From positions 1 through 23,858 of IMG/VR virus record IMGVR_UViG_3300025889_000948: 23,858 nucleotides of DNA. The stretch is one strand, 5' to 3'. Shown here one piece after another: positions 1 to 23,490 of this stretch. This stretch comes from a virus. The stretch's first letter is position 1, and each line of letters starts with the position of its first letter. Below the pieces are notes generated by a model. That model had not been told where the DNA came from and made no database searches. It saw only the letters and a list, made by a program, of their open reading frames with translations. Made by a program: the position numbers and the translations under genes.

Positions 1-35
1 TATCCGCCCTTGAATTGTTTTTTTGTGAAAGTCAT
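1..35 (-). CDS. 5' end of a gene leaving the window (unknown product)
   Basis: An ATG at 35 opens a minus-strand frame that runs off the left edge after 11 codons (MTFTKKQFKGG). The start is supported by the local start signal TAAC exactly 8 bases before ATG and by a good promoter 30-58 bases upstream. Too little is visible to assign a function. Confidence 0.5.
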   Translation of the reverse strand, partial: MTFTKKQFKGG

Positions 36-64
36 AAAAAGTTGTTATTTAATTGAACAATCTT

Positions 65-93
65 ATTATATATCTTTTGGTATCAAATTGCAA
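65..93 (-). promoter_or_regulatory. Sigma70-like promoter for the gene leaving the left edge
   Basis: On the minus strand TTGCAA (93-88) is followed after 17 bases by TATAAT (70-65). Transcription would start near 58 and reach the ATG at 35. Two ATACCAAAAG direct repeats overlap or flank the -35 and spacer, so the promoter is probably controlled. Confidence 0.6.
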
Positions 94-104
94 GCTTTTG
101 GTAT
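74..104 (-). repeat. Two direct repeats ATACCAAAAG, 21 bp apart
   Basis: ATACCAAAAG occurs at 104-95 and at 83-74 on the minus strand, with starts 21 bp apart (two helical turns). The left copy lies inside the -35/-10 spacer of the promoter at 65-93 and the other lies just upstream of its -35. This is the geometry of paired operator sites on one DNA face. The binding protein is unknown. Confidence 0.5.
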
Positions 105-141
105 TATTTAACTTGACAAGTTTGATTAAGTGTTTTATTAA

Positions 142-270: not shown

Positions 271-284
271 AAAAGTTTAGTTAA

Positions 285-416: not shown

Positions 417-432
417 AATAAAGTTTAGTTAA

Positions 433-1022: not shown

Positions 1023-1031
1023 TATAAATTA

Positions 1032-1574
1032 TTAGACGAATGTAGCTAAAGGCGTTTTCTTGCCGCCATATTCTTGAGTGCAAACATCACAAGTAAACAT
1101 TGTATAAGGCTCTCCGTTTTTTTTAGTGCCATGTTTTGGATTAGATAAAACTTTTTTGCACCTCTGGCAGTTTGTTTTTTCTACGCTATCAACATTTGCA
1201 ATCTTGACATCTATTGAAGACGCCCTATTGGCGTCATCGTCTTCCTCTGTTGTAATGTTAAAGATTTGACCAGTGTTATATCTTTTATAGTAAGTTATTT
1301 CACCTCCTTTTTGTTGTGGCGTTCCCTCTCCTAAACTTATACAACTTGTTATTTTTTCGCCACTCTCAACGTCAACCAATTCAGTACAAACAGCACCATC
1401 TTTGGTATAGTGAGTTAAAACTAAATTGTTTTCTTTAAGGATTGGTAGCAACTTTTCCATTATATCGTCAAGGCTACTATACTTTGATTTAAAAAATGGA
1501 TTGTCCGAACCCTTTTTGATTGCTAGCCCCTGTATCTCAAAAAGCTTTTTGTATATTGTGTTTTCTTTAGTCAT
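1032..1574 (-). CDS. ERF-family single-strand DNA annealing protein with C-terminal zinc ribbon
   Basis: The N-terminal domain (residues about 5-118) shows ERF hallmarks: NPFFKSKYSSLDDIMEKLLP near residues 25-44, GGEITYYKRYNTGQIFNI near 90-107 and the acidic tail EEDDDAN at 110-116. ERF proteins form rings on ssDNA and anneal complementary strands in phage recombination, often in place of Red-beta or RecT. Residues 136-165 form a CxxC...CxxC pair (C136/C139, C162/C165), a likely zinc ribbon after a linker; some ERF proteins carry such extensions. Total length of 180 aa is typical. The gene sits second in a leftward operon, and the ATG has TAAC exactly 8 bases upstream. No partner exonuclease is identified with certainty; the nuclease-like gene at 2509-2982 lies nearby. 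Confidence 0.88.
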   Translation of the reverse strand: MTKENTIYKKLFEIQGLAIKKGSDNPFFKSKYSSLDDIMEKLLPILKENNLVLTHYTKDGAVCTELVDVESGEKITSCISLGEGTPQQKGGEITYYKRYNTGQIFNITTEEDDDANRASSIDVKIANVDSVEKTNCQRCKKVLSNPKHGTKKNGEPYTMFTCDVCTQEYGGKKTPLATFV

Positions 1575-1583
1575 TGTAAATTG

Positions 1584-1754
1584 TTAGTTATTAATGCTTT
1601 TGGCTATCACAAGACGCTTCATGTCCTTAATAGCCTCCCTTATTTTGTTTGTGTCTACGTTTTCGTCTGTGTTTTTGACTATATAATTAAATAGTCTTTT
1701 GTCGGTCTTGTTGGAATAGAAATCACATATCATTTCCATTAAGTCGTAATTCAT
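1584..1754 (-). CDS. Small hypothetical protein, 56 aa, first gene of the ERF operon
   Basis: The frame starts MNYDLMEMICDFYSNKTDKR, is charged and helical, and ends TAA nine bases before the ERF start. No family recognised. It is the first gene after the minus-strand promoter at 1779-1806, so it is probably made early. The start has TAAC nine bases upstream. Codon use and context look genuine, and the size fits a phage early regulator or accessory protein, though nothing shows DNA binding. Confidence 0.6.
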   Translation of the reverse strand: MNYDLMEMICDFYSNKTDKRLFNYIVKNTDENVDTNKIREAIKDMKRLVIAKSINN

Positions 1755-1865: not shown

Positions 1866-1888
1866 GTATTTGTCATTAACAATTAATC

Positions 1889-1984
1889 ATGACTAAAAAC
1901 GATTCACAATATCTTGATAGGCTTTTAGAAACTGCAAAGCGAATAGTCGCAGAGCAAAAAAAATCATCTAATAAATCTAAATGA
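1889..1984 (+). CDS. Micro-protein 1 of a five-gene chain, 31 aa
   Basis: The frame MTKNDSQYLDRLLETAKRIV continues to 31 residues ending TGA; it is a charged, probably single-helix peptide. It is the first gene after the rightward promoter and has TAAC exactly 8 bases before its ATG. Its stop overlaps the next start as ATGA. The repeated ATGA coupling through this region is the main reason to accept so short a gene. Function unknown. Confidence 0.55.
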   Translation: MTKNDSQYLDRLLETAKRIVAEQKKSSNKSK

Positions 1985-2112
1985 AAACAACCACTAAAAA
2001 ACTAAGCCGAAAAGAAGAAAAATTAAAACTTAAGAAAGAGAATCAAAAAAAGATTGATAAACTGTTTCCGCCCTTAGATAAAACTTATAAATTTTTTAAT
2101 AAATACTTATGA
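1981..2112 (+). CDS. Micro-protein 2, 43 aa, strongly basic
   Basis: The frame begins MKTTTKKLSRKEEKLKLKKE and is extremely rich in lysine over its first 27 residues, then has an aromatic tail (FPPLDKTYKFFNKYL). The composition suggests nucleic-acid or ribosome contact, but this is inference. The start overlaps the preceding stop (ATGA) and the stop overlaps the next start (ATGA). TAAT lies exactly 8 bases before the ATG, inside the upstream coding sequence. Confidence 0.55.
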   Translation: MKTTTKKLSRKEEKLKLKKENQKKIDKLFPPLDKTYKFFNKYL

Positions 2113-2180
2113 AAGTACAAAACGAACATTCAATTGATTTCAATGATCAACAGATCGACGATGAATTTTATAACGAATAA
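2109..2180 (+). CDS. Micro-protein 3, 23 aa, acidic
   Basis: MKVQNEHSIDFNDQQIDDEF followed by three residues and TAA: a short, acidic peptide directly after a strongly basic one. The ATG overlaps the preceding TGA, and TAAT lies exactly 8 bases before it. It is too short to trust alone; the coupling on both sides is the argument. Opposite charges of micro-proteins 2 and 3 could mean they pair, which is speculative. Confidence 0.4.
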   Translation: MKVQNEHSIDFNDQQIDDEFYNE

Positions 2181-2517: not shown

Positions 2518-2982
2518 TTTGAGGGGCTTAATTACTTTAGTACATATCTTAAAGGCATGATCTATTGGAAGATAGAATTTTTTTATAGTTGGTAATTCAT
2601 GCTCTTGATATTTACCTGACTGATGCAATCTTCTAAGATACTTTTTACAAAAAATAAAAATTACATCATAGTTGCCTTGTACATATAGCCATGTATTATC
2701 TTCGCAATAAATACCACTAGGGATAAACTCATAATTTCCCTCTTTGCTTTTTTCAGCTACCTCAATTGATAGTTGCTTAGTTTCAACCATTCTTGCATCT
2801 AGTTTTATTTCTACACCCTGTAAACTTTCGCCTTTGTCTTTCTGGTAAGAGTAAGATGTGTAAGGTGTAAACACCATGCCAAGTTGACGAGCTAATTGCT
2901 CAAACACAAAGTCTTGATATTCTAGTCCAACTTGAAAAGAATCTTTGTGACCGCTATTTTTCTCTATATATTGCGATCTCAT
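2509..2982 (-). CDS. Putative phage nuclease (PD-(D/E)XK-like), 157 aa
   Basis: The central part reads as a restriction-endonuclease-like core: GLEYQDFVFEQLARQLG (residues 19-35) as first helix with E21, then QGVEIKLD (55-62) and LSIEVAEKS (71-79) as acidic strands, with E58, K60, D62, E74, E77 and K78 as candidate metal-site residues. The segment IYCEDNTWLYVQGNYDVIFI (91-110) follows. I recall similar proteins among uncharacterised phage genes. A role in recombination, such as end processing for the ERF protein or resolution of junctions, is inferred. The gene overlaps its upstream neighbour by ATGA. Which acidic residues are catalytic cannot be decided by eye. Confidence 0.55.
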   Translation of the reverse strand: MRSQYIEKNSGHKDSFQVGLEYQDFVFEQLARQLGMVFTPYTSYSYQKDKGESLQGVEIKLDARMVETKQLSIEVAEKSKEGNYEFIPSGIYCEDNTWLYVQGNYDVIFIFCKKYLRRLHQSGKYQEHELPTIKKFYLPIDHAFKICTKVIKPLKLS

Positions 2983-3209
2983 GATGTTTCATAAATTGAT
3001 AAACGACAAGGGCAAGTTTTAACATTCATTAGATTTCTTTCATTACAATTGTCACAAATCCACTTAGTCTTTTTATAAACTTCTCTAATTCTCAAATCAG
3101 GCTGCTTCTGTTCTTCTTCTAACTCTCTAATAATCTGATTAATTTTATTTATATTAATTACAACTTCTCTTTGAAGAGATTTAATATCATTAAGTTTTCT
3201 TTGATTCAT
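2979..3209 (-). CDS. Small zinc-ribbon protein, 76 aa
   Basis: Residues about 1-45 are helical and charged. The C-terminal part holds CDNCNERNLMNVKTCPC, a C-x2-C...C-x1-C arrangement suggesting a zinc-binding ribbon. Its stop overlaps the start of the putative nuclease gene as ATGA, so the two are made together and the small protein may be a partner or specificity factor (inference). The start has TAAT exactly 8 bases before ATG, and a TATAAT lies about 50 bases upstream. Confidence 0.6.
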   Translation of the reverse strand: MNQRKLNDIKSLQREVVININKINQIIRELEEEQKQPDLRIREVYKKTKWICDNCNERNLMNVKTCPCRLSIYETS

Positions 3210-3256
3210 AGTTAAGAATTAATAAATAAACTTATTTATAATAACTTCCTCTTTAG

Positions 3257-3262
3257 ATTATA
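3257..3262 (-). promoter_or_regulatory. Probable -10 element for the zinc-ribbon/nuclease operon
   Basis: TATAAT on the minus strand (3262-3257), within GGATATAATC, gives a leader of about 40 bases before the ATG at 3209. The -35 region is weak (TTAAGC at 16 bases). Confidence 0.45.
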
Positions 3263-3359
3263 TCCACCTACAGAAGTAGCTTAAGTTTCTTAATACTACA
3301 ACTAAAGAAAGAAGTTTTTTTGATTACCTTAAATAACACATGATAAACAAGATAATTTA

Positions 3360-3710
3360 TTATAGTTTTTTGTTTTTATTCTATCCTCCTGATTGTAAAA
3401 GAGCAGCTTCCTATATATAGTTTTATGGCCTTCCCCTTTGAGTTATAGAGCCACCTTTGAAGTTCGTAATATTTAAGTTTGTAAACTTTGACTGTTTACC
3501 CATCCAGTTTGAGGCGGCTACTACGATTCGCTTACCCCTCCGTCGGATGTCTTAGAGCCAGTTATTATCTGGAAGGATTACAAGAGAAAACGATCAACTC
3601 CTATAATCCCTTCAAACAATAATTGGGCGTTCTTGCTAGTCAAGCTTCGATTAACAAAAACGCACAAATTCACAAGACAAATAATTGGCTTGCTTTTTTG
3701 TTTTTATTTT
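3360..3710 (-). ncRNA. Candidate structured non-coding RNA
   Basis: This gene-free stretch is less AT-rich than neighbouring intergenic DNA and folds well when read on the minus strand. A long hairpin spans 3626-3558: CCAATTATT (3626-3618) pairs with AATAACTGG (3566-3558), and a 16-base arm (3613-3598) pairs with 3586-3571 with 12 Watson-Crick pairs, three G-U pairs and one mismatch. A second helix pairs AGCCGCCT (3519-3512) with AGGTGGCT (3456-3449), enclosing the hairpin GTAAAC/GTTTAC (3499-3494 with 3486-3481). A promoter (3720-3749) points into it. The 3' end is undefined and no terminator is obvious. G-U pairs slightly favour the minus strand. Family not recognised. It could instead be a long leader of the 3209 operon. 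Confidence 0.5.
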
Positions 3711-3734
3711 TGTTTGGCAACTATAGCATTTCAT
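3651..3734 (-). CDS. Doubtful 27-aa cysteine peptide
   Basis: An ATG at 3734 opens a short frame starting MKCYSCQTKIKTKKQANYLS and ending in FVRFC, then TAA. The C-x2-C and trailing cysteines resemble half of a zinc finger. It lacks the usual start signal at 8 bases and overlaps the promoter that points into the structured RNA, so it may be chance or a decayed gene. A longer in-frame version reaching 3863 needs a TTG start and an AT-rich, low-complexity N-terminus. Confidence 0.25.
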   Translation of the reverse strand: MKCYSCQTKIKTKKQANYLSCEFVRFC

Positions 3735-3749
3735 AATTAGCTTGTTCAA
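3720..3749 (-). promoter_or_regulatory. Sigma70-like promoter facing the structured RNA
   Basis: Minus strand TTGAAC (3749-3744), 18 bases, TATAGT (3725-3720). Transcripts would begin near 3712 and run through the folded segment towards the 3209 operon. The divergent plus-strand operon starts at 3899. Confidence 0.5.
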
Positions 3750-3898
3750 GTTATTTAAGTAGACAAAAACAATATACTTGTGTGAAATTATAAAATATTT
3801 GTGTTTATAATAAACTTTCAATAAATTTATATTAAATAAACAATAAACTTTTGACCATTTCAATTAAAATCTTTAGTCTGTTTTCGTAATAAATAAAA

Positions 3899-4333
3899 AT
3901 GGCAAAAACTGAAAGGTCAAAACTTAACAAAGAAAACGAAGATATGGCAAAGAAAATTGCCAAACTTAGAGACAAAAACATTTGTCAAAAGTGTGGCAAA
4001 TTAGTAAGTGGGACGAATTGTCACGGCTCGCACGTGATACCAGTTTCAAGAGATGGGCGGTTGAGGTGTGACTCAATTAATATAAAAGTGCTTTGCTATC
4101 ATTGTCATAAGCATTGGTGGCACAAGCACCCTGTGGAGGCTGGTCATTGGTACACGGAAAAATTTCCTAAAAGGTGGGAATACCTAGAAGAAGAACATAA
4201 GCAAAATCAAAAGAAGGGCACAATTTCTATTTTGTGGATAAGAGAAAGAAACGAAGAACTAAAACAAGAATTACAAAACTTAAAAAATGAAGTAATTATT
4301 AACGATGTTACAATTGAAGATTTACCATTTTAA
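3899..4333 (+). CDS. NinG/Rap- or HNH-like zinc protein, 144 aa
   Basis: Residues 29-75 hold ICQKCG (C29/C32), then NCHGSHVIPVS (C41, H42, H45) and LRCDSINIKVLCYHCHKHWW (R56, C57, D58, N61, C66, C69). This is the Cys/His pattern of the phage NinG/Rap recombination proteins and related HNH-like nucleases, which cut branched or other DNA during late recombination. A helical, charged tail follows (about residues 95-144). It is the first gene of a tight plus-strand operon, nine bases before the 3D-domain gene. The start has TAAT exactly 8 bases upstream. Assignment to NinG versus a generic HNH family is uncertain; nuclease activity is inferred. Confidence 0.65.
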   Translation: MAKTERSKLNKENEDMAKKIAKLRDKNICQKCGKLVSGTNCHGSHVIPVSRDGRLRCDSINIKVLCYHCHKHWWHKHPVEAGHWYTEKFPKRWEYLEEEHKQNQKKGTISILWIRERNEELKQELQNLKNEVIINDVTIEDLPF

Positions 4334-4342
4334 CAAATCAAA

Positions 4343-4936
4343 ATGACTGAAAAAATAAAAGTTTCATTGTCAATAATATTGGGCTTCTTGTTAGCTACCG
4401 CGTGGCTTTTTATATCAATCAAAATCACAAAAGCCTTTTCACCAATAGATCAAATAATTAGCTTGTATACTGAATTTAAAGAATATATGAACAAGTTTAG
4501 TACTCAAGAGTTGAACAATGAAGTTGTACAAAATAACGAAGAATTGAACACCGAAGTTGTTCGACAGGCTGATGTTTTTAACGTTAAAATAACCACATAC
4601 AACCCAGAGGTGGGGCAAACTGACGGCAGTCCATGTATTGGCGCAATAGGCAAAAACGTTTGCCAAATGTATAGTGATGGACTTAACCCGATAGCAGTAT
4701 CAAGAGATTTAATTTATAGTCGTAACGCTCGAGCTGGATATTGTCAAACTAATTGTTCTTTAAATTGGGGTGATACTGTTGAGATAGTATCAGAAGAGCC
4801 TCAATGCAATATTATGGGGACGGTAGTTGATACTATGAACAGAAGATTTACAAATAGACTCGACATATTCAAGCCAACAAGAAATTTAAACACCTCTTGT
4901 GTGGGTAATATTTATATTCTTAACAAATCACAATGA
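4343..4936 (+). CDS. Membrane-anchored 3D-domain (double-psi barrel) wall-active protein, 197 aa
   Basis: One membrane segment (about residues 8-27) anchors the protein, followed by a helical linker (35-75) and a C-terminal domain with the three aspartates that name the 3D family: QTDGSP (D94), VVDTMN (D163) and NRLDIF (D174), with IAVSRDLI between. 3D domains occur in MltA-type and Rpf/YabE-type proteins that cleave or bind peptidoglycan. Six cysteines (98, 107, 134, 138, 155, 186) in the exported domain suggest disulphides. The gene lies between the NinG-like gene and a winged-helix-like gene, overlapping the latter by ATGA, and two genes before an M23 peptidase, so a role in lysis or wall penetration is likely. 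TAAC lies 8 bases before ATG. Confidence 0.75.
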   Translation: MTEKIKVSLSIILGFLLATAWLFISIKITKAFSPIDQIISLYTEFKEYMNKFSTQELNNEVVQNNEELNTEVVRQADVFNVKITTYNPEVGQTDGSPCIGAIGKNVCQMYSDGLNPIAVSRDLIYSRNARAGYCQTNCSLNWGDTVEIVSEEPQCNIMGTVVDTMNRRFTNRLDIFKPTRNLNTSCVGNIYILNKSQ

Positions 4937-5271
4937 TTTTGTTTGTATTCGTTTCTCTTTTCTTAATACTTTATTTAATGATTGGCCTTGCTAAAAAACA
5001 CAAGGAAATTTCTAATACTCCTATTTGGACAATAAAAGCAATAGAAGGAATGCAAAAAGTAAATGTTAATTTAGACGATTTAATCAAAAAACGTGTTCAA
5101 TTAGCAATTAAAGATAAAACTTTAAGTAAAAAGTTTTCAGTACATGAAATTAAAAAAGTGGCATCAGTTTATAGTAAAAACACTCTATTGTCTGCTTTGC
5201 AATCGCTTGTTAAAGATGATATTCTAAAGACTGAACAAGTACAAGGGAAACAATTATTTTACCAAAAATAA
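4933..5271 (+). CDS. Membrane-anchored winged-helix-like protein, 112 aa
   Basis: Residues 1-19 (MILFVFVSLFLILYLMIGLA) form one membrane segment. After a linker, residues about 55-110 read as a winged helix: IKDKTLSKKFSVHEIKKVA, then YSKNTLLSALQSLVKDDILK and a short beta-like end (KTEQVQGKQLFYQ). The order anchor, linker, winged helix would put a DNA- or protein-binding domain on the cytoplasmic face. It is coupled on both sides, by ATGA to the 3D-domain gene and by TAATG to the M23 peptidase gene, so it is made with the wall-active proteins. A related layout occurs in the protein at 6347-6823. The winged-helix call is by eye and unproven. Confidence 0.5.
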   Translation: MILFVFVSLFLILYLMIGLAKKHKEISNTPIWTIKAIEGMQKVNVNLDDLIKKRVQLAIKDKTLSKKFSVHEIKKVASVYSKNTLLSALQSLVKDDILKTEQVQGKQLFYQK

Positions 5272-6092
5272 TGGCCATCATTTATCATTCTCAAGCTGAA
5301 CTTTTACAACTTCTTTATAAGGAGGATAAAGTTGGCGTAACTCAAAAATATGGTGGCAATTTTCGTTTACCTAATGGGAATTGGGCGTATGCTGTAATGC
5401 ACGGCGGTGTTGATACTAGGGCGGCAGTTGGAACCCCTTTATATGCTCCCTTTGATTGCGAAGTCAAAAGCTCTGATTTGGGCAATAGAGACTATGGGAA
5501 AAATTTAACTCTTTGGGCTAAAAACATTTCTATAACTGACGGTGATAGGGTATGGCATGAATGCAAAGTGAGGATAGGGCATTTAAGCGAATTTTTGGTT
5601 AAAGATGGCTTTGTAAAAAAGGGGGCTAAAATCGCACTAACTGGCAATACTGGATTTTCAAACTCTCCACATTTGCACACTGAGCTAATACCATATCAAG
5701 ACGGTAATAGGGCAGTAATGAATAAAGTTAGCGGAAGAATCAACCCCGAGTCAATATCTTTTGTAAAAGACGTTTTTAAGGAAGCGAAAGAATGGGCGGA
5801 GCAATTAAAAATTTGCAATAATCAGAATTACAAGAATGCACCAACTAAAGAAGAGTTTTTACAAATGCTTTATAATTATGATCAGAACAAAGAACAATTT
5901 AAATATAATTACATGGATTTAAAAAATGAGGTTAAGAACCCTATATTTAACAAATATGATGGAACGTTAACCGAAAACATGGCTAGGATAATTGCCGACA
6001 TTGGAATAGACAGAAAAATGAAAGACCAGATATTGCCTTATATTCAACAGATAATAGACGAGAACAACTTGAAAAGTGTTTATTTTGAATAG
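5271..6092 (+). CDS. M23 (LytM-type) peptidoglycan endopeptidase, endolysin, 273 aa
   Basis: The catalytic domain (about residues 22-150) has all the expected zinc and catalytic residues: HGGVD (H44, D48), GHLSEF (H104) and SPHLHTEL (H134, H136), with the loop GTPLYAPFDCEV (54-65) typical of the family. M23 enzymes cut peptide cross-bridges of peptidoglycan. There is no signal peptide, so release through a holin is expected. The C-terminal 120 residues are helical and may bind the wall or serve another role; no known binding repeat is visible. The start overlaps the previous stop (TAATG) and has TTAC rather than TAAC at the usual spacing. It could also be a virion-associated lysin, but its place in this operon favours an endolysin. 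Confidence 0.85.
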   Translation: MAIIYHSQAELLQLLYKEDKVGVTQKYGGNFRLPNGNWAYAVMHGGVDTRAAVGTPLYAPFDCEVKSSDLGNRDYGKNLTLWAKNISITDGDRVWHECKVRIGHLSEFLVKDGFVKKGAKIALTGNTGFSNSPHLHTELIPYQDGNRAVMNKVSGRINPESISFVKDVFKEAKEWAEQLKICNNQNYKNAPTKEEFLQMLYNYDQNKEQFKYNYMDLKNEVKNPIFNKYDGTLTENMARIIADIGIDRKMKDQILPYIQQIIDENNLKSVYFE

Positions 6093-6098: not shown

Positions 6099-6127
6099 TT
6101 GACGTTTCTTTTTATTTGTGATATAAT
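6099..6127 (+). promoter_or_regulatory. Strong sigma70-like promoter
   Basis: TTGACG (6099-6104), exactly 17 bases, TATAAT (6122-6127). It begins seven bases after the endolysin stop and drives the 57-aa gene at 6155 and the membrane protein at 6347. Confidence 0.8.
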
Positions 6128-6154
6128 AGAAAGAAATCCAATAACAAAAACAAA

Positions 6155-6328
6155 ATGAACGAAACAAACAGCCTTCTTGATAGGATAGTCAAGGACATTG
6201 ATTCCCTCACAAAAAGAGTTGATCAATTTTATAAGCTCGGTCTTTACCGTGAGTCTTTTGATTTAGAAAAGACTTTGAGTAAAAAGAGCGACTTGTATTT
6301 TGCTTTAGGTAAAATGCTTTTTTCTTAA
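6155..6328 (+). CDS. Small helical protein, 57 aa, unknown function
   Basis: The frame MNETNSLLDRIVKDIDSLTK continues as a charged, probably helical protein to 57 residues and ends TAA. It is the first gene after the strong promoter at 6099-6127. Its leader TAACAAAAACAAAATGAA is identical over 18 bases to that of the gene at 6347, suggesting equal translation or leader duplication. No family recognised. Confidence 0.65.
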   Translation: MNETNSLLDRIVKDIDSLTKRVDQFYKLGLYRESFDLEKTLSKKSDLYFALGKMLFS

Positions 6329-7161: not shown

Positions 7162-7182
7162 AATAATTTTTTAATAATAATT

Positions 7183-7191: not shown

Positions 7192-7254
7192 AAGTTTATC
7201 TTTTAACTCTCTGCCTATGTAAATTAAATTTATTTATTTCATTAATATAATATC

Positions 7255-7737: not shown

Positions 7738-7746
7738 AAGTATTGT

Positions 7747-8025
7747 TTAATAATGACGGTGTCCGTTCTTATAAATATAATATACAAAAGCTAGCATTGA
7801 TATCATAAAAGGTGTCTGTGCAATAATAATTATTAAATTGTTATAATGCAAATTAATACCTACAAGCTCCACGGTGACACATATTAAAGAACGCCAAGAC
7901 ATAGAAAAGAAAATAGACAGCATATTTCTCCTAAGCATCTCGTGTTTGCTAGGCCTAGACTTAAAAAAGAAAATAGCACCCAGTACGCCAACAACGAGAT
8001 TTATAATATAAAAGAATAAAAGCAT
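7747..8025 (-). CDS. Multi-span membrane protein, 92 aa
   Basis: About three hydrophobic segments are visible (residues 2-21, 42-57, 62-86) with a basic loop (KSRPSKHEMLRRN) after the first and a basic tail (KNGHRHY). No family recognised. Between two other small membrane proteins, it is likely part of the lysis or membrane-fusion set. The ATG is two bases after the previous gene's stop region, and no TAAY start signal is seen at 8 bases, so translation probably depends on the upstream gene. Confidence 0.55.
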   Translation of the reverse strand: MLLFFYIINLVVGVLGAIFFFKSRPSKHEMLRRNMLSIFFSMSWRSLICVTVELVGINLHYNNLIIIIAQTPFMISMLAFVYYIYKNGHRHY

Positions 8026-10334: not shown

Positions 10335-10363
10335 ATAATTATATTAAGTAGTACTATTATAAA

Positions 10364-10852: not shown

Positions 10853-10861
10853 ATAATTTTA

Positions 10862-13195
10862 TTAAGACCATTGAAATTGTGACCATATACCTTGGTCGGG
10901 ATCAGACCCCCATTTTGCGGCTGCGTTGCCTAGAGAATAACTAAAGCCTTCTGTAATATAAATATTTTCGTCTGCGTTTTCTAATTGTATAACTACCTCG
11001 TCAAAATTATCATTTTCGTTTCTATCAAGTAGCTTTTGAAACAGTTCTATTATTCCGAACAACGTACTTGCACAATTTACAGTATAAACAGAATAATCAC
11101 CGTTTCTAATAGTCTTTGTAAGGCTTTGAATTAAAAAAGTATCGTTTAAGCCTCTTTCTGTGTCTATTATACTAATCAACTGGCCCGCATGCAATCCGTG
11201 CCAATCTGTCGTAAATTTAGCATTTACAATAGGATTGGAATATTTCCGAAGTTGAGCATCTGCCAAATCCGCCGCCTCTGATTGTGTGAGGATTGATTGA
11301 TTTGTGATTGGCTCACCGTCAAAAATACCAGTCCCACCAATTAAAGTCTGCATTCTTGTAATTGAAGCGTTGTCTTTTCTTTGAATAGATATTTTATATT
11401 TTTCGTTATATTTAAACTTAATAATACCATCAGTTGTTAAAGTTGTTTCGCTGTCAGTTGCTCTTACTGATCTATTATTAAAATCAGAAACATAGTCAAC
11501 GGTTGTCTCATCGGCTATATTTTCAAGCCCTACAGATTTACTAGAAAAAATAGAAAAAGTGTCGCCGTTAGTTTGACCTGTTACCGCTGCGACAGTAAAA
11601 GAATCAGGATCGGGAACGGTTAGAACTTCTCTAACTTCACTTCCTGCAGTCCTATTTGTAATATAGTCGCCAACTGTCAAGCCATGGCCTGTAGCGTTTA
11701 TTGTTGTTGTTGTTGTGCCAGCTTCTGCTAGGTCTGTAACTGTGTTGTTATCTACGAAAACTTCTAAATTAACAAACTGACTTTTTAATATCCATTCTCG
11801 CATCTGCCCATCTCCGAAAGTGTTTTGTTCATAAGTTGCCGCCGAGGTCGCCAGCCCCCCATGTACTACCTGCTGATTTACTAACTGATCAGAGTCAACG
11901 GTAATTGTTAGCTTGTCAAAGTTATCAGAATTATTACTCAAGCCAAAAGGAGCTGGATTAGTGGCTTGTTCGTAAAAATGTATGTCTTTGTCATAGTCTA
12001 TATACCAAAAGAACCCCTTAACATCAGCCATTAATTGCATTACTTTACTAGGTCTTTGTCTTCGCATATTGAAATTGTCAAACGTGCTTGACTCATTCAC
12101 ATTGTCAAATGTAAAGGAACCAGTTTCATTAATACGGACACCGTCAATATAAATTGAACTGTCAGCCGTTTCCGTAATGATAAATTCTAAATGCGTTATA
12201 TCTGTCCAATCAGGCGTACCGACTACTGTCATGTCAACTAAATCAATTCTTTTATAATGAAAGTCGTTATCTGCCTCGGGTGTAAATGTTTGCTTGACAT
12301 AATTAGAACTATCTGAACCAATACGAACCTCAATAGAAGTAACCGCCGTATTGTCTACTTGCTTATACCAAAAAGCCAAAATACCCTCTAAAGGTGTCCC
12401 ACTTGCCGCACCTGTTAAATACTCAATATTAATATTTGAGGGTGTACCTGTAAAAGTCGCCATTCCTCCCGAATAAGTCCAAGGAAATTCAGCCGACGTA
12501 TTACCTTCTCTTATTTCTATAGTTTCAAGTAGGGGATTGTCACCGTCTCCAGTCTCTACCCATTCAGCCCTTAAAGCCGTAACATTAGTATATTCCATGT
12601 CTTCAATAAGCTCATTTAAATTAATGAAATTATTTACTGCGTCAACGGTAATATATAACGACGTTCTGTCTTCGTAACTCTCATTTATTAAAGCTTTATC
12701 AAATAACTTTGTGTAATCTGTGCATTGTACGTTATAAATTAAATTAGTCAACTGTACTAAATTTTGATCTGATACAGTAGTCACAACACCGCCAAATATT
12801 TTAATGCCGACTAGTTCGTCTTCGTTAAAAGTCCCTACAACATTATCAACAAGCGTGATTGTATTAGTTGATTGATTAATATCTGAAATAACCATCTTTT
12901 CATTATCTCCGCCAATGTCAGCATATAAAGTATTACCAACCCTAAATAGATTAGTTGACCATATGGAATCACCTGAAATAGTTTTATCTTTTATTACTAG
13001 GGTATTACTAGACAAAGAAGAAATTAAAACATGTTCGTAAATAACAACCTCTTGATATTCCGAAGGCTTATTTTTCAGCATTGAAAAACTACAAGACGTT
13101 GCTCGCCGTTGGAAGTTCTCGCTGATTGAGAGTGAATCTAATTCAACACTTGCGTCAGTTGATCTATTAACCCCATTGATAAAAATAGAAATCAT
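10862..13195 (-). CDS. Baseplate hub/tail protein with inserted binding-type domains, 777 aa
   Basis: The gene follows the tape measure with an ATGA overlap, the usual place of the distal tail or hub protein. The C-terminal part (about residues 635-715: EAADLADAQLRKYSNPIVNA, then AGQLISIIDTERGLNDTFLI) resembles hub proteins of siphophages. Two insertions stand out. Residues 210-355 read as a jelly-roll, carbohydrate-binding-like domain (LAFWYKQVDNTAVTSIEVRI ... IYIDGVRI). Residues about 484-550 carry TGHGLTVGDYITNRTAGSEV, a small beta domain common in phage tail proteins. These inserts may contact the cell surface. No lysozyme-type motif is visible. The start lacks the TAAY signal, consistent with coupling to the upstream gene. 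Confidence 0.72.
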   Translation of the reverse strand: MISIFINGVNRSTDASVELDSLSISENFQRRATSCSFSMLKNKPSEYQEVVIYEHVLISSLSSNTLVIKDKTISGDSIWSTNLFRVGNTLYADIGGDNEKMVISDINQSTNTITLVDNVVGTFNEDELVGIKIFGGVVTTVSDQNLVQLTNLIYNVQCTDYTKLFDKALINESYEDRTSLYITVDAVNNFINLNELIEDMEYTNVTALRAEWVETGDGDNPLLETIEIREGNTSAEFPWTYSGGMATFTGTPSNINIEYLTGAASGTPLEGILAFWYKQVDNTAVTSIEVRIGSDSSNYVKQTFTPEADNDFHYKRIDLVDMTVVGTPDWTDITHLEFIITETADSSIYIDGVRINETGSFTFDNVNESSTFDNFNMRRQRPSKVMQLMADVKGFFWYIDYDKDIHFYEQATNPAPFGLSNNSDNFDKLTITVDSDQLVNQQVVHGGLATSAATYEQNTFGDGQMREWILKSQFVNLEVFVDNNTVTDLAEAGTTTTTINATGHGLTVGDYITNRTAGSEVREVLTVPDPDSFTVAAVTGQTNGDTFSIFSSKSVGLENIADETTVDYVSDFNNRSVRATDSETTLTTDGIIKFKYNEKYKISIQRKDNASITRMQTLIGGTGIFDGEPITNQSILTQSEAADLADAQLRKYSNPIVNAKFTTDWHGLHAGQLISIIDTERGLNDTFLIQSLTKTIRNGDYSVYTVNCASTLFGIIELFQKLLDRNENDNFDEVVIQLENADENIYITEGFSYSLGNAAAKWGSDPDQGIWSQFQWS

Positions 13196-15751: not shown

Positions 15752-15790
15752 AAATTATTATTAAGAAATACTATAAATATATTACCATCT

Positions 15791-15819
15791 ATTTTACTTG
15801 ACGCCAAAAAGATTGACAA
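15791..15819 (-). promoter_or_regulatory. Promoter for the chaperone/tape measure genes
   Basis: Minus strand TTGTCA (15819-15814), 17 bases, TAAAAT (15796-15791). Its -35 overlaps the -35 of the divergent lipoprotein promoter (plus strand TTGACA, 15813-15818), so the two promoters share one site and may compete for polymerase. Confidence 0.55.
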
Positions 15820-15842
15820 GCTATAGTTAAATTTGCTATAAT
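15813..15842 (+). promoter_or_regulatory. Sigma70 promoter of the lipoprotein gene
   Basis: TTGACA (15813-15818), 18 bases, TATAAT (15837-15842): consensus hexamers, the best match in the window together with 6099-6127. A perfect inverted repeat begins four bases after the -10, over the expected transcription start. Confidence 0.82.
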
Positions 15843-16204: not shown

Positions 16205-17741
16205 TAACCCCATTTCTCAAAACAACTCTAACAGTTTCAGCGTCATCCTCATCATATTCAGCTTCAAACTTTATATCTTGATTAATCACATCTTCGGCGG
16301 TCAGATTCGTTCCAAAAACGTCATATTTGGTCTTAGGGAAGCTTACTCGTAAGCTTTCCTTTGCGTTGGCGTCAATTCCATGTACTGTGTCGCCTAGATT
16401 AGCTTTAGCAACGGCAGCAATAGCGAATTCAGTTGCACCAGTACCACTTGCGGCAGCACTAACACCAGATAGAGCGTCAACGGCAGCAGCGACTAGAGTG
16501 GCTGTATTTTTATTTGTTGTTGTACTTGCTAGCTCAATTAAAATATTTTTACTTCCTGTTGGATTGAATGAAGCAGCCAGATCATCGGTATCATTGATTA
16601 CTATTGTTACGTTATAATCTTCACCAGCACGACCAGCGGTGTCGGCAGTAACAGTCACAACCCCATTAGCACCACCCGGCCCAAAATCTAACGTTGCAGC
16701 TTGAGCGGAAGCAGTTGAAAGGGTAGCACCGCAATGATGTACTCTTGTGCCTATTTCTTGATTATTAACCAAATCGTCAAATTGTGAAACATTGGCAAAG
16801 TAATTAGTGAAAGAACCCCTAGCCCTAAAATCTTTTAAATTAATAGTGCTTGCGAATCTGTTTGCAAAATTGCAACCAGTAGCGGCGAATCTAGGATCAA
16901 GCACGTTTTCAAACTCGAACGTGTAATCTTCGGCGTTTACTGTGACAGCGTTATCAACTGGATTAGGATAGGTCGCACCGACTGTGTAATTTGAACCGCC
17001 AATCCAAATTAAATTTTCTCCTAGATCATAGGTCGGTGTTCCTTTTTTAATAACTACTATATCGTCAATATCAAGAGTATCTGAAATTGTAGATACTTCC
17101 ATTTCAGTTTCGCTAGTTATTGAGCTAATTGTATATTCAGCTATTTCAGTTTCGTGGTCGTCTTTATCTAAAACAATAATAGTGTCGCTAGTAGTTAATC
17201 CAGTTGTTTGTTTTAAGTTCATTGTAGTACCAGAACTAGCGGCGACAGTCAACCTAGTAGTTGTAAATGATTTTTGCGGTACAACTTCAATAGCCGCCAT
17301 TATTTTATTATCTGTTTGACTAAATGTTACCTTAGCCACTCTAACACCTACATATCTATAAACATAATTAAAGCCAGCAAGTTTTACGTCCATTGTGAAA
17401 GTTGTCAAAGTATTTGACGGAGTAAATACATGTTGATAAACAACCCCAGATTCTACAGTTGTTGTTGTTGGATTGCCAAGCCCTGCTTGTAGTAAATAGC
17501 CAATTGTTTTGGCGTCAACGCATACGTTAATAGTACCGCCAATCTCAATTTTATCTTTAACGCTTCTGAGTCTAGCGTCACGTTTTCCGGCTATAGGCTC
17601 GACAGCTTGAATTGTATATTTTGTTTGTACGTTTTCGTCAATAAGTTCTAAATAAGTATCAGGCTGCACGGCCACCCCTGCGGTAGTTTCTTTTTTTAAA
17701 GCTAGATAACCAAGACGTGAAAAGGACGTAGAATTAGACAT
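16194..17741 (-). CDS. Major tail (tube) protein, enlarged by inserted domains, 515 aa
   Basis: The N-terminal region (MSNSTSFSRLGYLALKKETT, then GVAVQPDTYLELIDENVQTK) and IEIGGTINVCVDAKTIGYLL resemble siphophage tail tube proteins, and the gene lies just before the chaperone and tape measure. Its size is well above usual tube proteins. Extra beta domains appear near residues 165-235 (SSGTTMNLKQTTGLTTSDTI) and about 340-450 (GVVTVTADTAGRAGEDYNVT, then TLVAAAVDALSGVSA). The latter looks like the small domain often built into phage sheath and tail proteins. Such inserts would project from the tube. The start overlaps the preceding stop (TAATG), with TAAC exactly 8 bases upstream inside the previous gene. 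Confidence 0.75.
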   Translation of the reverse strand: MSNSTSFSRLGYLALKKETTAGVAVQPDTYLELIDENVQTKYTIQAVEPIAGKRDARLRSVKDKIEIGGTINVCVDAKTIGYLLQAGLGNPTTTTVESGVVYQHVFTPSNTLTTFTMDVKLAGFNYVYRYVGVRVAKVTFSQTDNKIMAAIEVVPQKSFTTTRLTVAASSGTTMNLKQTTGLTTSDTIIVLDKDDHETEIAEYTISSITSETEMEVSTISDTLDIDDIVVIKKGTPTYDLGENLIWIGGSNYTVGATYPNPVDNAVTVNAEDYTFEFENVLDPRFAATGCNFANRFASTINLKDFRARGSFTNYFANVSQFDDLVNNQEIGTRVHHCGATLSTASAQAATLDFGPGGANGVVTVTADTAGRAGEDYNVTIVINDTDDLAASFNPTGSKNILIELASTTTNKNTATLVAAAVDALSGVSAAASGTGATEFAIAAVAKANLGDTVHGIDANAKESLRVSFPKTKYDVFGTNLTAEDVINQDIKFEAEYDEDDAETVRVVLRNGVTSY

Positions 17742-17872
17742 TATAAGTCGTTAGATGATAGTTTTGACTTCTTTTTAGGAAGTTTAGGAGCTTCTTTAGG
17801 CTCTTTGTAGACAATTTCAGCTTTCACAACGTTTCCATTATCATCAAGAGTTTTTTTAATTTCGTAATCCAT
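17741..17872 (-). CDS. Small basic protein before the major tail gene, 43 aa
   Basis: The frame MDYEIKKTLDDNGNVVKAEI continues with a Lys/Pro-rich tail (KEPKEAPKLPKKKSKLSSND) and ends TAA overlapping the next ATG. TAAT lies exactly 8 bases before its ATG. The coupling to the major tail gene and the preceding promoter/hairpin make it a credible gene. Function unknown; a role in controlling expression or assembly of the tail protein is only a guess. Confidence 0.6.
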   Translation of the reverse strand: MDYEIKKTLDDNGNVVKAEIVYKEPKEAPKLPKKKSKLSSNDL

Positions 17873-17883
17873 AATAATTTATT

Positions 17884-17917
17884 AAAAAAAGAGCCACGTA
17901 ATAAAACGCAGCTCTTT
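17884..17917 (-). terminator. Terminator-like hairpin in the leader of the major tail operon
   Basis: Minus strand AAAGAGC (17917-17911) pairs with GCTCTTT (17894-17888), with an inner GCGT/ACGT helix, followed by a run of T bases ending at 17884. It has the form of a rho-independent terminator, yet a TATAAT at 17935-17930 would start transcription just upstream, placing the hairpin inside the leader of the 43-aa/major tail operon. It may end read-through from the neck genes, attenuate, or protect the 5' end. Confidence 0.65.
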
Positions 17918-18450: not shown

Positions 18451-18888
18451 TTATATAAAGTCAGTTACTAAATATTTTCTTAAAATTGCTTTAATATCTT
18501 TTATCATTGGATTGGTAACGCCTAGCATTTTTCTTTGATCAACACCCTCACCGAGTTGGTGTTTTCTGTAATAAGATACTTGGTTACCAATTTTGACAGA
18601 AAAATTATTCAATTGTAATATCTTAAATCCTTTTTTTAATTTTCCAGTTCTTTCTAGTATTGGATGATAAGCACCAAAGCCAAGCCTAGCACGTTGAGAG
18701 GCGGTAAAAGGTGATAGTGGCTTCCAGTTTTGCCCAAAATATCCTTCTGATTGAAAATTCTTTAGTACGTTTTTAACTACATATTCGCCGGATTCTTGCA
18801 AAGGCTTTTTTGCGTTCTTAACTCTCATTGTAAAGGCTGCAATTTTAGCTTTAATCAATTTGTCGCCTATAACTTCAACATTAGACAT
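18451..18888 (-). CDS. Phage virion morphogenesis protein (Mu gpG-like), 145 aa
   Basis: The order of features fits the phage virion morphogenesis family: a helical N-terminus, then GYFGQNWKPLSPFTASQRAR (about residues 49-68), PILERTGKLKKGFKI (76-90), VKIGNQVSYYRKHQLGEG (98-115) and a final RKMLGVT segment (118-124) corresponding to the usual RpFLG. These proteins act in head completion and head-tail joining. The ATG overlaps the final base of the upstream connector gene (TAATG), and TAAC lies 11 bases before it within that gene. Confidence 0.78.
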   Translation of the reverse strand: MSNVEVIGDKLIKAKIAAFTMRVKNAKKPLQESGEYVVKNVLKNFQSEGYFGQNWKPLSPFTASQRARLGFGAYHPILERTGKLKKGFKILQLNNFSVKIGNQVSYYRKHQLGEGVDQRKMLGVTNPMIKDIKAILRKYLVTDFI

Positions 18889-19699: not shown

Positions 19700-20131
19700 T
19701 CAAACATCTACAGCCTGCGTCAAATCAATTCCAGCAAAGTCGTCTAGTGTTTTTAGGTATGTGTAAAGGTGTGCTATAGCCTCATTCATAATATCGTTAA
19801 AATTATTAGGTGAAAAGTTTCCAAATACATTGCTCCAATTAAGCATAACAATACAATCTGTATCGCTCATTTGATTAAATTCATAATCAAGATTATTGTC
19901 AGCTATGTGAACAGTTATAACTTTCAAAGGACTAGCCGGATTATTGCCATCCCTAGCGGCTATATTTTTCCACACGATACATTCAAGTTGAGCAATTTTA
20001 TTAACAGGATCAAACATTTGTAATTTTTCGGGCAGTTCAACGTTTTGTCGTCCTATTCTGAAATAAGCATCAGCCAAAACATTATTATTTGGATCAGCGA
20101 AGCGGTCAATAAAGGGAATTGTTAAAGCCAT
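19700..20131 (-). CDS. Hypothetical structural-module protein, 143 aa
   Basis: An alpha+beta protein (MALTIPFIDRFADPNNNVLA; LQMFDPVNKIAQLECIVWKN; IMNEAIAHLYTYLKTLDDFA). No family recognised. It lies between the large fibre-like gene and the connector gene, so it may belong to the virion or its assembly. About 8 bases upstream of the ATG is TAAC, followed by an A run. A gap of about 56 bases to the next gene contains a promoter-like sequence. Confidence 0.55.
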   Translation of the reverse strand: MALTIPFIDRFADPNNNVLADAYFRIGRQNVELPEKLQMFDPVNKIAQLECIVWKNIAARDGNNPASPLKVITVHIADNNLDYEFNQMSDTDCIVMLNWSNVFGNFSPNNFNDIMNEAIAHLYTYLKTLDDFAGIDLTQAVDV

Positions 20132-20147
20132 TTTTTTTGGTTAATTA

Positions 20148-22268
20148 TTAAGTAAGAGTAACTGACTTCCAAGAGCCATTATAAATATAAAGTTTATTAT
20201 TAGAAGTATCATATTGCATAGCCACCTTTCCTGTAAATGAGGTGGGGGTACCTGTTGGCACGCCTGCACTAGTAGGAATATAAACAAATCCATCAGTAGC
20301 CGTTGTTACTAAAGCGGCTTGCTCGCCTAAAACAATATTTCCCCTTCCTGTAGCTGATAAAATTGTAGTGAGACTATTTAGGCTAGAACCACTAACGCCA
20401 GCCTTTGAAATTTTCAAATTAACAGAACCACCAATTCCAGTGCCGGTACTCTTCCCTCCGCCGATATTTAAATCATAACCGGCAGCATTACCACCACTAA
20501 TTCCAGTATTTTGAATTGTGACCGCGGCATTGGTTAAGCTAGTAACACCTCGTCCCAAATAAAAATCAGTTATACCGTTGCTATTGCCAATCACACATTG
20601 ATTAGCTGCTGTAGCATTAACGCTATACCCTAAAACTATAACGTTACTATAACTACCAGTAGTTTGACAGCCAGCACCGACTACAGTTGAATAATTATCA
20701 GTATTGAACCCACTACCTGCGTTGTACCCTATAGAAGTTAGCCCAATGCCAGAAGTGGCATTACCATTAGATTCATAGCCAATACTTACTCTTTGCCCTC
20801 CTGTTGTTGTTAGTTTAGAGGATTGATAGCCTATAGAAACATTATAAGAAGAAGTGGCATTTCCTCCAAGAGCAGAAGAATGAGCATAATATCCAATTGC
20901 AACTACACCATCACCAGCAGTCTGATTATAAGCAGCCCGCCCCCCGAAAAAAGTATTATAACTAGAGCTCGTTATTTTCCATCCGCAAGTAATACCACCA
21001 AAAGCAGTATTGAAATCACCTGTAGTTTGAGCAAGCAAAGCCGCATTACCAAAGCCCATTGGTGACTCACTTGAAGTGGTATTCTTACAAACTTGATCCC
21101 CAATCATTACGCCATTACGAGCAGAGGTTATTGAGCTTCCTGTACCGCTGGACCCAGCGATAAAATTCCTAAATCCTGTCATTGTTAAATTACCAACGTC
21201 TTGACCTATACACACGCTGTCTTCTGTTGGCGTGAATATGTCTATTATACCAGCAGAAGCGTTATTATTGGATATTGTTAATTTATTATTAGTTTTATCC
21301 CATACAAAATTATTGTCACCACCCAAAGAGCCAGAATCATTGAATTGTATTTGAGTCGTTGAGCCTGCAGGGAAAAAACTTATAGATGTAACAGGATAAG
21401 AATTTGAAACATTAATATTATTCCCACCAACAAAATACAATGTATCAGTTGGCGAAGTTGCGGCCATAGAGGTGACGCCATCGCTTATGTTTAGCCATAA
21501 GTTTTGGCTTGTATCATTATCATTTTGCCAAGTAAGAGAACCGGCACCGTCAGTTTTTAAAACTTGCCCATTAGAACCATCTATAAGAGGAAATTTATAA
21601 GTATTATTTATTTCAACTTCTCCGCTTGCTGTAAGTGCAAATCTTTGAGACCCTCCAGCTAACAAATGAAATTCATCGGTAGCGGTAGACCTTAAAATAT
21701 GATGAGTAGAACCGTTTAAATTTAAATCATTATTAGAAAGACCGCCGTTGTCGATAGTAATGTTGTTTGTCGTGGTCGCTCCTAAATCTGTAACATTTTG
21801 CAATGTTTGCGTTTCTGTGTATCCGGTAATATATCCAGCATCATTGACTAATTCAGAGACATTGTCGCCACTAGATAAAAATTGTGATGTAGCATTGTTG
21901 TAAAGCGATAAATCTGTATCAATGCTCAAAGTGTCCCCAGTTAAACTTAGAGGCGAAGTTGCTGCTAAATTTGTATCGTCCGAAATATCAATAGTATTAC
22001 CACCGGTAACAACTCCGCCAGCAGTATTTTTTAAAAATCCGGCCGTAGTCATCTCGTCAAAAATATAATCCCCCTTAGTTACATCGCTTGTTGTTCTAAA
22101 AGTAATGCTGTCAGAAGGATCAACACCACCGTAAAGAACCTGCCCGCCAGTACGCCCAAGCAATAAATGATATTGCGAGTGATCATCGTCACTAAGCCCG
22201 GTTAAAGCTCCATGATCTGTTACACCTCCACCAGCCCCCGCAATGTTCGGATATTGATGAATTGACAT
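20148..22268 (-). CDS. Large fibre or decoration protein with YadA-head-like repeats, 706 aa
   Basis: The N-terminus contains DHGALTGLSDDDHSQYHLLL (residues 18-37), a motif very common at the start of phage fibre proteins. Residues about 40-340 are beta-rich and low in complexity. Residues about 365-590 hold repeats of the type VAIGYYAHSS, VSIGYQSSKL, VSIGYESNGN, TSIGYNAGSG: the left-handed parallel beta-roll repeats of YadA-like trimeric adhesin heads. The last 55 residues (TDGFVYIPTSAGVPTGTPTS; VAMQYDTSNNKLYIYNGSWK) are a common fibre end domain. No S74 chaperone tail is present. It lies before the neck genes rather than after the hub, so it may decorate the head. Confidence 0.75.
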   Translation of the reverse strand: MSIHQYPNIAGAGGGVTDHGALTGLSDDDHSQYHLLLGRTGGQVLYGGVDPSDSITFRTTSDVTKGDYIFDEMTTAGFLKNTAGGVVTGGNTIDISDDTNLAATSPLSLTGDTLSIDTDLSLYNNATSQFLSSGDNVSELVNDAGYITGYTETQTLQNVTDLGATTTNNITIDNGGLSNNDLNLNGSTHHILRSTATDEFHLLAGGSQRFALTASGEVEINNTYKFPLIDGSNGQVLKTDGAGSLTWQNDNDTSQNLWLNISDGVTSMAATSPTDTLYFVGGNNINVSNSYPVTSISFFPAGSTTQIQFNDSGSLGGDNNFVWDKTNNKLTISNNNASAGIIDIFTPTEDSVCIGQDVGNLTMTGFRNFIAGSSGTGSSITSARNGVMIGDQVCKNTTSSESPMGFGNAALLAQTTGDFNTAFGGITCGWKITSSSYNTFFGGRAAYNQTAGDGVVAIGYYAHSSALGGNATSSYNVSIGYQSSKLTTTGGQRVSIGYESNGNATSGIGLTSIGYNAGSGFNTDNYSTVVGAGCQTTGSYSNVIVLGYSVNATAANQCVIGNSNGITDFYLGRGVTSLTNAAVTIQNTGISGGNAAGYDLNIGGGKSTGTGIGGSVNLKISKAGVSGSSLNSLTTILSATGRGNIVLGEQAALVTTATDGFVYIPTSAGVPTGTPTSFTGKVAMQYDTSNNKLYIYNGSWKSVTLT

Positions 22269-22271
22269 TGT

Positions 22272-22703
22272 TTATGGTGTTATTTCTACGCCGAAGACCG
22301 TAAAAGTCAAAGCGTCATTTGTTTCAGTCCTAACGGCTAGATTTCCGTTATCATCGTTCATTGTCCAATAGATGGAAAATTCTACCGTAGTGTTGGCGGC
22401 TATGTCAGGATCATAAATTAACGCTGTGCTTTGGTCGTAAGTTGTGCCGTCATCGTCAATAAACACTCTTGCTTTTACAGATGATCCTGTAGTATTACAA
22501 ATCACTAAGCTCGTTATAATTGTGGTTGTCGAAGCCGGTGGGCTATAAATACTAGTTGCTGTCGTGTTAGGTGGTCTCAATTGCCCTAATTGTTTTCGTG
22601 TAAATGTTCCTCCACTAACAACTGGTAGCGGATTTAAATTATTAATAGGATCGCCATCGCTATCCAACAAGCCGACATTTTGGTTAGAGGCTCCACCCGA
22701 CAT
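22272..22703 (-). CDS. Small beta-rich virion protein, 143 aa
   Basis: Mostly beta strand with few charged residues (IYSPPASTTTIITSLVICNT; KARVFIDDDGTTYDQSTALI; NTTVEFSIYWTMNDDNGNLA), as in capsid-decoration or fibre-base proteins. The N-terminal 30 residues are Gly/Asn/Pro-rich and probably flexible. It precedes the large fibre-like gene by three bases and may be its anchor. TAAA lies exactly 8 bases before ATG. The family is not named with certainty. Confidence 0.55.
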   Translation of the reverse strand: MSGGASNQNVGLLDSDGDPINNLNPLPVVSGGTFTRKQLGQLRPPNTTATSIYSPPASTTTIITSLVICNTTGSSVKARVFIDDDGTTYDQSTALIYDPDIAANTTVEFSIYWTMNDDNGNLAVRTETNDALTFTVFGVEITP

Positions 22704-22716
22704 ATTAATTTTTTAA

Positions 22717-23490
22717 TTATTTAAACTTAGCCGCTCTAACTTTTAATTCTCTAGCTTGCAAATCTTGCTCTTTAAAATCTAAGCCGGCTTTTTTATCATC
22801 TAAACTTTTTCGTTCATCTCTCTGTCTCAACGCTCTTTCATCTGCGTTCTTTCTTTCTTTTTCTAATTCTAACTTCTCAGCTTTTAATTGTTTTTCTAGT
22901 TTAGACAGCTCTTTTGCTTTTAATTCATTTTCGGCGTCTAACTCTTTATTATAAATCTCGACAATCTTCTCTTTATATTCAATTCTAGGAGTAAGGTCAA
23001 TGTTTGCTTTCTTTTCTTTTAATTCAATCAATTGCTTCAATTCATCTGTAACTTGTTTTTTAACATTCTTGAGCTTACTAAGCCACTCATTTTTTTCTTG
23101 CTCTAATTCTTCTTTTTGTAAAGTTAAACTTTTCTCATCTTCTTTTAATTTAGCTTCAAGAGCATCGCATTTTATTTCTCTCTCTTTAACTTTCTTATCG
23201 TCAACAGATACCTCAACAGGTACCTCAATAATCTTCTCTTTATATTCAATCTTGTTAACAGTCTTAACTACAGGATTAAGGTCAATGCTTGCTTTTTTTT
23301 CTTCAAGCTCTTCAATCTCTTTTTTTAAACTTTCTATATTTTTTAAAAAAGACTTTTCGAGTTTTTCGTTTTCAGCCTTTAACTCTTTGGCTCGCTTTTC
23401 TTCGGCTTTAGCAAAATTCTGAAAATCAATCATTTGTGATCGAGCGACTCTAAGTTTTTCCGTTGCTTTGTCAAGTTCGTTGTTTTCCAT
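22717..23490 (-). CDS. Coiled-coil protein with an internal duplication, 257 aa
   Basis: The protein is almost wholly a charged coiled coil rich in Lys and Glu. A segment occurs twice: EEKKASIDLNPVVKTVNKIE then YKEKIIEV (about residues 62-90), and KEKKANIDLTPRIEYKEKIV (about 157-177). The pattern suggests two equivalent rods with short beta-like breaks. There is no membrane segment. It lies among virion genes, so scaffold-like, head-fibre or assembly roles are all possible; none is shown. TAAA lies exactly 8 bases before ATG. Confidence 0.6.
   Translation of the reverse strand: MENNELDKATEKLRVARSQMIDFQNFAKAEEKRAKELKAENEKLEKSFLKNIESLKKEIEELEEKKASIDLNPVVKTVNKIEYKEKIIEVPVEVSVDDKKVKEREIKCDALEAKLKEDEKSLTLQKEELEQEKNEWLSKLKNVKKQVTDELKQLIELKEKKANIDLTPRIEYKEKIVEIYNKELDAENELKAKELSKLEKQLKAEKLELEKERKNADERALRQRDERKSLDDKKAGLDFKEQDLQARELKVRAAKFK

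Follow-up and report, generated by a model that had tools for sequence, protein, structure and literature searches.

A TTAA(C/T) start signal in place of the Shine-Dalgarno sequence in a phage and a clade of Patescibacteria that seems to reserve Shine-Dalgarno initiation for rpsU

How are start codons chosen in a phage whose genes all but lack Shine-Dalgarno (SD) sites? The question is raised by a phage fragment of 23,858 nucleotides (nt), IMG/VR virus record IMGVR_UViG_3300025889_000948, which was analysed over its whole length and is called the window below. The initial annotation had proposed that TAA(C/T/A), placed eight bases before ATG, replaces the SD site throughout the window and might pair with an unusual 3' end of 16S rRNA; the first part of this interpretation stands, and the pairing does not. 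Read from the letters, all 21 starts listed there have TAA(C/T/A) exactly eight bases before ATG (Table 1), and an extra site that had been overlooked, TAACCAAAAAAA-ATG, lies at the minus-strand start 20131. We conclude that TTAA(C/T) located 8-11 nt before ATG is a real, host-derived and SD-independent start signal.

The window gene set comprised 40 genes with full leaders, with start 35 excluded and start 20131 included. TAA occupies positions -12 to -10 (TAAH, -12 to -9) in 21 of the 40 starts (52%), compared with 11 of 605 control ATGs that are not starts (1.8%), and is found at any fixed position between -40 and -20 in about 4% of the leaders. The expectation under the local A/T-rich composition is 7.7%, which gives a binomial p of ~1e-13. 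The comparison with shuffled controls proposed at the outset likewise bears out the enrichment, the maximum over all positions in 5000 shuffles per leader having a mean of 6.3 and never exceeding 14. The signal was also present at 16 of 31 starts in an automatic gene set (open reading frames (ORFs) of at least 60 amino acids (aa)), and more starts carry TAA at -11 or at -13 to -15. An expectation-maximisation motif search without prior knowledge returned TAA[CT][AT]A at -12, and TAAC is the top enriched 4-mer of the window leaders (9.9x). The SD words GGAG, GAGG and AGGA occur in 3% of the window starts, in agreement with the earlier statement that such sites are absent. In addition, G is nearly missing from positions -12 to -1, and A is found at -3 in 74% of the leaders.

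In five of the 21 cases, the TAA is itself the listed stop of the preceding gene. A TAA at -12 also shares the frame of the ATG, which made a control for reading frame necessary. Both facts would suit a by-product of stop codons or of termination-reinitiation, in which TAA is mostly the upstream stop at a preferred 9-nt gap. However, the other 16 sites are not upstream stops, and after removal of the stop-codon sites the signal still marks 16 of 35 starts (p ~1e-9). As the initial annotation had noted, the first genes at 1889 and 7255 carry the signal and the 1981 site lies within an upstream reading frame; divergent first genes have it as frequently as close-packed genes in the window and in two Patescibacteria genomes, G181 and G321. 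The in-frame control positions in the window are not comparably high (TAA at -9 in 8/40 and at -15 in 3/40), the out-of-frame positions -13 and -14 are enriched about the same as -12 and -15 in the host genomes, and the flanking T and C belong to the motif. We therefore regard the stop-codon account as extremely doubtful.

The 515-aa tail protein of the window has relatives in ten other viral contigs. The pooled phage relatives (near-identical contigs left out, GC content up to 0.45) yield the motif [TA]TTAA[CT], in which TAA falls at about -12 to -15, together with a 10.8x enrichment of TAAC in leaders and no SD; control SD phages gave AGGAGG in the same search. In the leaders of orthologous tail genes, YTAAY is retained 8-11 nt before ATG in seven of seven cases, although the remaining leader drifts. 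This conservation bears on the possibility that A/T-richness and an unstructured leader alone are selected, in a Kozak-like, Bacteroidia-style manner, with TTAAC itself unrecognised. The almost G-free leaders and the frequent A-3 would be expected on those terms, and A-rich leaders do serve initiation in Bacteroidia (PMC6847099). Nevertheless, TAAC is enriched 5-11x, above other AT-rich words, in the window, the phages and the hosts, and shuffling within leaders never attains the observed count, so that composition alone is an unlikely explanation.

Code 25 is used by Gracilibacteria and Absconditabacteria. One relative of the phage, L021, cannot be read in code 11 and becomes open when TGA is taken as glycine; 13 of its 24 TGA codons stand opposite Gly when aligned to the window tail protein. 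A relative of this protein was found in one of 380 Patescibacteria genomes (G016, E 3.9e-24). Because of the TGA=Gly code of L021 and the relative in G016, we consider Patescibacteria to be most likely the hosts of this phage family, as judged from sequence. Many in-frame TGA were seen in L021 and L022. L014, suspected of code 25 from coverage, was dropped, its matched protein having no in-frame TGA. Phages of Gracilibacteria and Absconditabacteria are reported with the standard code and with code 25 (PMC10746230), and the present family likewise has both standard-code and TGA=Gly members; the available part of that source does not discuss start signals, which are the main feature here.

In the bacterial sample, 40 Patescibacteria genomes were represented by 20-kb ribosomal-protein regions, with starts taken as first-ATG calls, which dilutes the signal; the metagenome-assembled genomes may carry contamination. 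Three start types were distinguished, namely SD users, genomes with T at -1 and a TAAC group, and the six TAAC-type genomes are monophyletic with a support of 1.0 (17 proteins, 3080 columns). Larger start samples from two of the clade genomes (G181 and G321) gave the motif [TA]TAA[CA], beginning mostly at -13 to -16, with TAAC as the top enriched 4-mer (7.5x and 4.8x, respectively). The signal precedes 52% of divergent first genes in G181 and 41% in G321, against 8% and 12% in the controls, and is as common there as within operons. SD words are scarcer in the SD region than farther upstream, with 5.5% versus 11.4% in G181 and 3.1% versus 11.0% in G321. A clade of bacteria thus normally starts its genes with this signal, which is not a peculiarity of the phage. 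The class of G181 contains 353 genomes, among them G298, G321, G356 and G221, and in-frame TGA is found at 2.7-5.6 per 100 codons in about 8 of 20 sampled class contigs, consistent with code 25. The class probably corresponds to Gracilibacteria in the broad sense, the signal clade being its presumed standard-code members; the code-25 members show a weak signal (TAAC, 2x).

T at -12 and A at -11 would also fit a -10 box of leaderless transcripts beginning at or near ATG. Leaderless lineages with a -10 box at the ATG are described for Deinococcus-Thermus in the available portion of PMC12340547, and such lineages seem present in the phylum, as in G362, where TANNNT is found at -12 in 24% of starts. 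The phage signal resembles those lineages in its TA at -12/-11 but differs from them in having no T at -7, leaders of at least 20 nt and operon-internal use, including starts that overlap upstream genes. Few starts have T at -7: the frequency of TANNNT at -12 is 5% in the window and G181 and 7% in G321. Starts 6155 and 15884 are preceded, at a distance of 20-35 nt, by good sigma-70 promoters (Table 1); the one before 6155 implies a leader of ~20-25 nt, hence a transcript that is not leaderless, and the one before 15884 a leader of ~30-35 nt. Leaderless initiation thus appears most improbable as the source of the signal. Two further observations concern other start types of the phylum. G343, G361, G352 and others (L131, L124, L120), which have T right before ATG in 75-93% of starts and almost no SD, form a third start type in Patescibacteria. 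G362 (also L165, L223-L231) has a 16S 3' end without CCUCC that reads GGAATAATTCAATTTG, and T at -1 in 68% of its starts; judging by these letters, it looks like a lineage that has lost the anti-SD and has many leaderless genes.

The signal lies where an SD site would lie, with a near-fixed spacing, and altered 16S tails exist in some Patescibacteria (G362, G659), so that a re-coded SD, pairing with an altered 3' end or with another accessible stretch of the host 16S, had to be weighed; SD-scarce members of the candidate phyla radiation (CPR) without CCUCC are also on record in the available text of PMC10783764. However, the signal-bearing candidate host genomes have the canonical 16S end ...GGATCACCTCCTTT with CCUCC kept, the exception in the class, among the genomes that could be resolved, being G659. 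The duplex energies of the clade and window leaders with the 16S tail equal those of shuffled leaders, and the leaders of the SD-using control G035 pair better than shuffled ones. Within 16S, the complement of TTAAC (GTTAA) is confined to internal positions, and its recurrent copy near position 1095 is shared with an SD-using genome. Pairing with 16S rRNA, including the unusual 3' end suggested initially, is therefore a quite improbable basis for the signal in the sampled clade.

If the anti-SD is kept, which gene uses it? The clade ribosomes seem to keep SD initiation in reserve for one gene, rpsU, which encodes bS21. Of 30 class genomes examined, 21 have an extended SD before rpsU that pairs at -14 to -22 kcal/mol (a strong rpsU SD being defined as at or below -13 kcal/mol), as exemplified by GAAAGGAGGTG in G181, whereas any SD word was found in 5 of 58 neighbouring starts (p = 5e-9 against rpsU). 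Among all sampled starts rpsU is the strongest, at -19.5 kcal/mol in G181 (261 starts) and -18.4 kcal/mol in G321 (313 starts). Among the genomes whose 16S tail could be checked, the rpsU SD is present in all 13 that match the canonical anti-SD; of the six with no match, which does not equal loss of the anti-SD, four are without the rpsU SD (Fisher p = 0.004); G659, which has no rpsU SD, carries CCTTTTTT where CCTCC is expected. In L234, L235, L251 and L252 of the sampled class neither signal was seen, and the signal is not class-wide. A Pfam model had suggested that bS21 is absent from most TAAC genomes, but a clade-specific alignment recovered the protein from 274 of the 353 genomes of the class, and the absence was therefore dropped. 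All 30 class sequences of bS21 (L266-L295) have the same Tyr in their C-terminal part, which from the alignment could be the counterpart of Y54 in Flavobacterium johnsoniae. A covariation beyond CCUCC, between the G321 tail UUUAAUU and AATTAAAAGGAGG in its rpsU leader, is not claimed because an rpsU leader of this type also accompanies the common UUUCU tail in G640 and G641. Domains of the bS1 type occur in all genomes of either start type and do not discriminate; since SD and non-SD genomes both have them, bS1 is a candidate reader and not a finding.

In F. johnsoniae, mRNAs lack SD sites, the anti-SD is sequestered by bS21-bS18-bS6 and an extended SD is found on rpsU (PMC9976891, PMC6847099); the pocket for the 16S tail involves Tyr54 of bS21, and in Flavobacteriales ribosomes without bS21 read the gene of bS21 itself (PMC9976891). 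The clade resembles Bacteroidia in its SD-less genes with a canonical CCUCC in 16S, in an extended SD that is nearly confined to rpsU and pairs at similar energies (below -13 kcal/mol), and, in the present phage, in the favoured A-3. It differs in belonging to another phylum with a divergent bS21 sequence, and in marking starts by a distinct word, TTAAC, at a distance of 8-11 nt from the ATG instead of by single A positions (such as A-3). As the rpsU SD and the canonical anti-SD repeat the Flavobacteriales pattern, we infer the same sequestration logic here, known for Bacteroidia and in the clade deduced from sequence alone. The 16S 3' tail would be kept off the mRNA by a Bacteroidia-like platform pocket involving bS21, while ribosomes without bS21 would expose the anti-SD and translate rpsU, resulting in autoregulation. 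Other mRNAs, those of phages included, would be positioned by their unstructured, G-poor leader together with the TTAAC word, which may contact the 30S platform, the exit channel or a bound protein, for example bS1. Another initiation factor, as suggested initially, is a further possible reader. Overall, we consider it probable that the clade uses an SD-independent TTAA(C/T) signal which its phages have copied, with sequestration putatively linked to bS21. The wider proposal, that anti-SD sequestration with bS21-controlled specialised ribosomes and sequence-specific, TTAAC-read starts obeyed by phages originated a second time and independently in a Patescibacteria clade, is possible, and we advance it tentatively, at somewhat less than an even chance.

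Several points weigh against the main reading, that of a clade signal copied by its phages. Starts other than rpsU reach -13 kcal/mol or below (three in G181, two in G321). G221 has an anti-SD that failed the match pattern, and G655 and G611 have an SD before rpsU with no 16S match. The link between phage and host is indirect, via the start signal and the code-25 relative; G016 itself has mixed SD starts, and none of the tail-protein matches in the 353 class genomes was convincing. A genome scan for this protein found no host, and the match of G492, considered a code-25 copy within the class, did not hold up. The spacing is tight at 8 in the phage compared with 8-11 in the sampled bacteria, and because none of the sampled genomes matches the phage spacing, the exact host is probably unsampled.

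Organisms that are scarce in SD and retain a conserved anti-SD are of an already known kind (PMC6847099 and the portion of PMC10783764 at hand). In that portion, Estrada et al. 2024 define class ii by conserved CCUCC with scarce SD, which G181, G298 and G321 fit, and class iv by loss of CCUCC, including SR1 and Peribacter, which G659 resembles; for CPR, it mentions neither a motif that replaces the SD nor an exceptional rpsU. In the open-access literature, neither TTAAC as a start word nor an rpsU-specific SD was found described for Patescibacteria. The motif could be used by gene finders and in start annotation for a large uncultured group and its phages, and as a host-prediction mark for phage contigs. 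Furthermore, it provides a testable case of start choice without SD pairing, in which a positional word can be mutated, and the exceptional leader of rpsU suggests more than one evolutionary origin for anti-SD sequestration and for autoregulation by bS21.

Table 1. Start-signal sites, promoters and selected genes along the window
Feature	Position	Strand	Gene or start	Remark
TAAC-N8-ATG	44..47	-	ORF starting at 35
TAAT-N8-ATG	1031..1034	-	684-1022	TAA doubles as stop of 1032-1574
TAAC-N8-ATG	1583..1586	-	1032-1574	overlaps stop of 1584-1754
TAAC-N8-ATG	1877..1880	+	start 1889	no upstream gene on same strand
TAAT-N8-ATG	1969..1972	+	1981-2112	within upstream reading frame
TAAT-N8-ATG	2097..2100	+	start 2109
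TAAC-N8-ATG	2171..2174	+	2183-2320
TAAT-N8-ATG	3218..3221	-	2979-3209
TAAT-N8-ATG	3887..3890	+	3899-4333	HNH endonuclease-like
TAAC-N8-ATG	4331..4334	+	4343-4936	TAA is stop of 3899-4333
TAAC-N8-ATG	4921..4924	+	4933-5271	within codons of upstream gene (ATGA overlap)
TAAA-N8-ATG	7170..7173	-	6904-7161
TAAT-N8-ATG	7243..7246	+	7255-7488	divergent first gene
TAAA-N8-ATG	7746..7749	-	7507-7737	TAA is stop of 7747-8025
TAAT-N8-ATG	10343..10346	-	9072-10334
TAAT-N8-ATG	10861..10864	-	10364-10852	TAA is stop of 10862-13195
TAAT-N8-ATG	15760..15763	-	15407-15751
TAAC-N8-ATG	17750..17753	-	16194-17741	major tail protein-like, 515 aa
TAAT-N8-ATG	17881..17884	-	17741-17872
TAAC-N8-ATG	20140..20143	-	19700-20131	overlooked initially
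TAAA-N8-ATG	22712..22715	-	22272-22703
TAAA-N8-ATG	23499..23502	-	22717-23490
TAAC, 9-nt spacer	6142..6145	+	6155-6328	off-spacing example
Other off-spacing sites			before 270, 416, 672, 1754, 6347, 9063, 15261, 15884, 18888
Sigma-70-like promoter	6099..6127	+	upstream of 6155	TTGACG-N17-TATAAT
Sigma-70-like promoter	15813..15842	+	upstream of 15884	TTGACA-N18-TATAAT
M23 peptidase gene	5271-6092
Tape measure gene	13192-15261
Tail completion gene	18451-18888

About 650 bases between divergent genes (3230-3890) are without a convincing gene, and an Rfam scan of the window, this interval included, gave no match. The product of gene 9072-10334 matches phrog_19111, a family of unknown function; this 420-aa protein contains several near-identical GNATDKGDLTVAR / ATYGFFGGG repeats.

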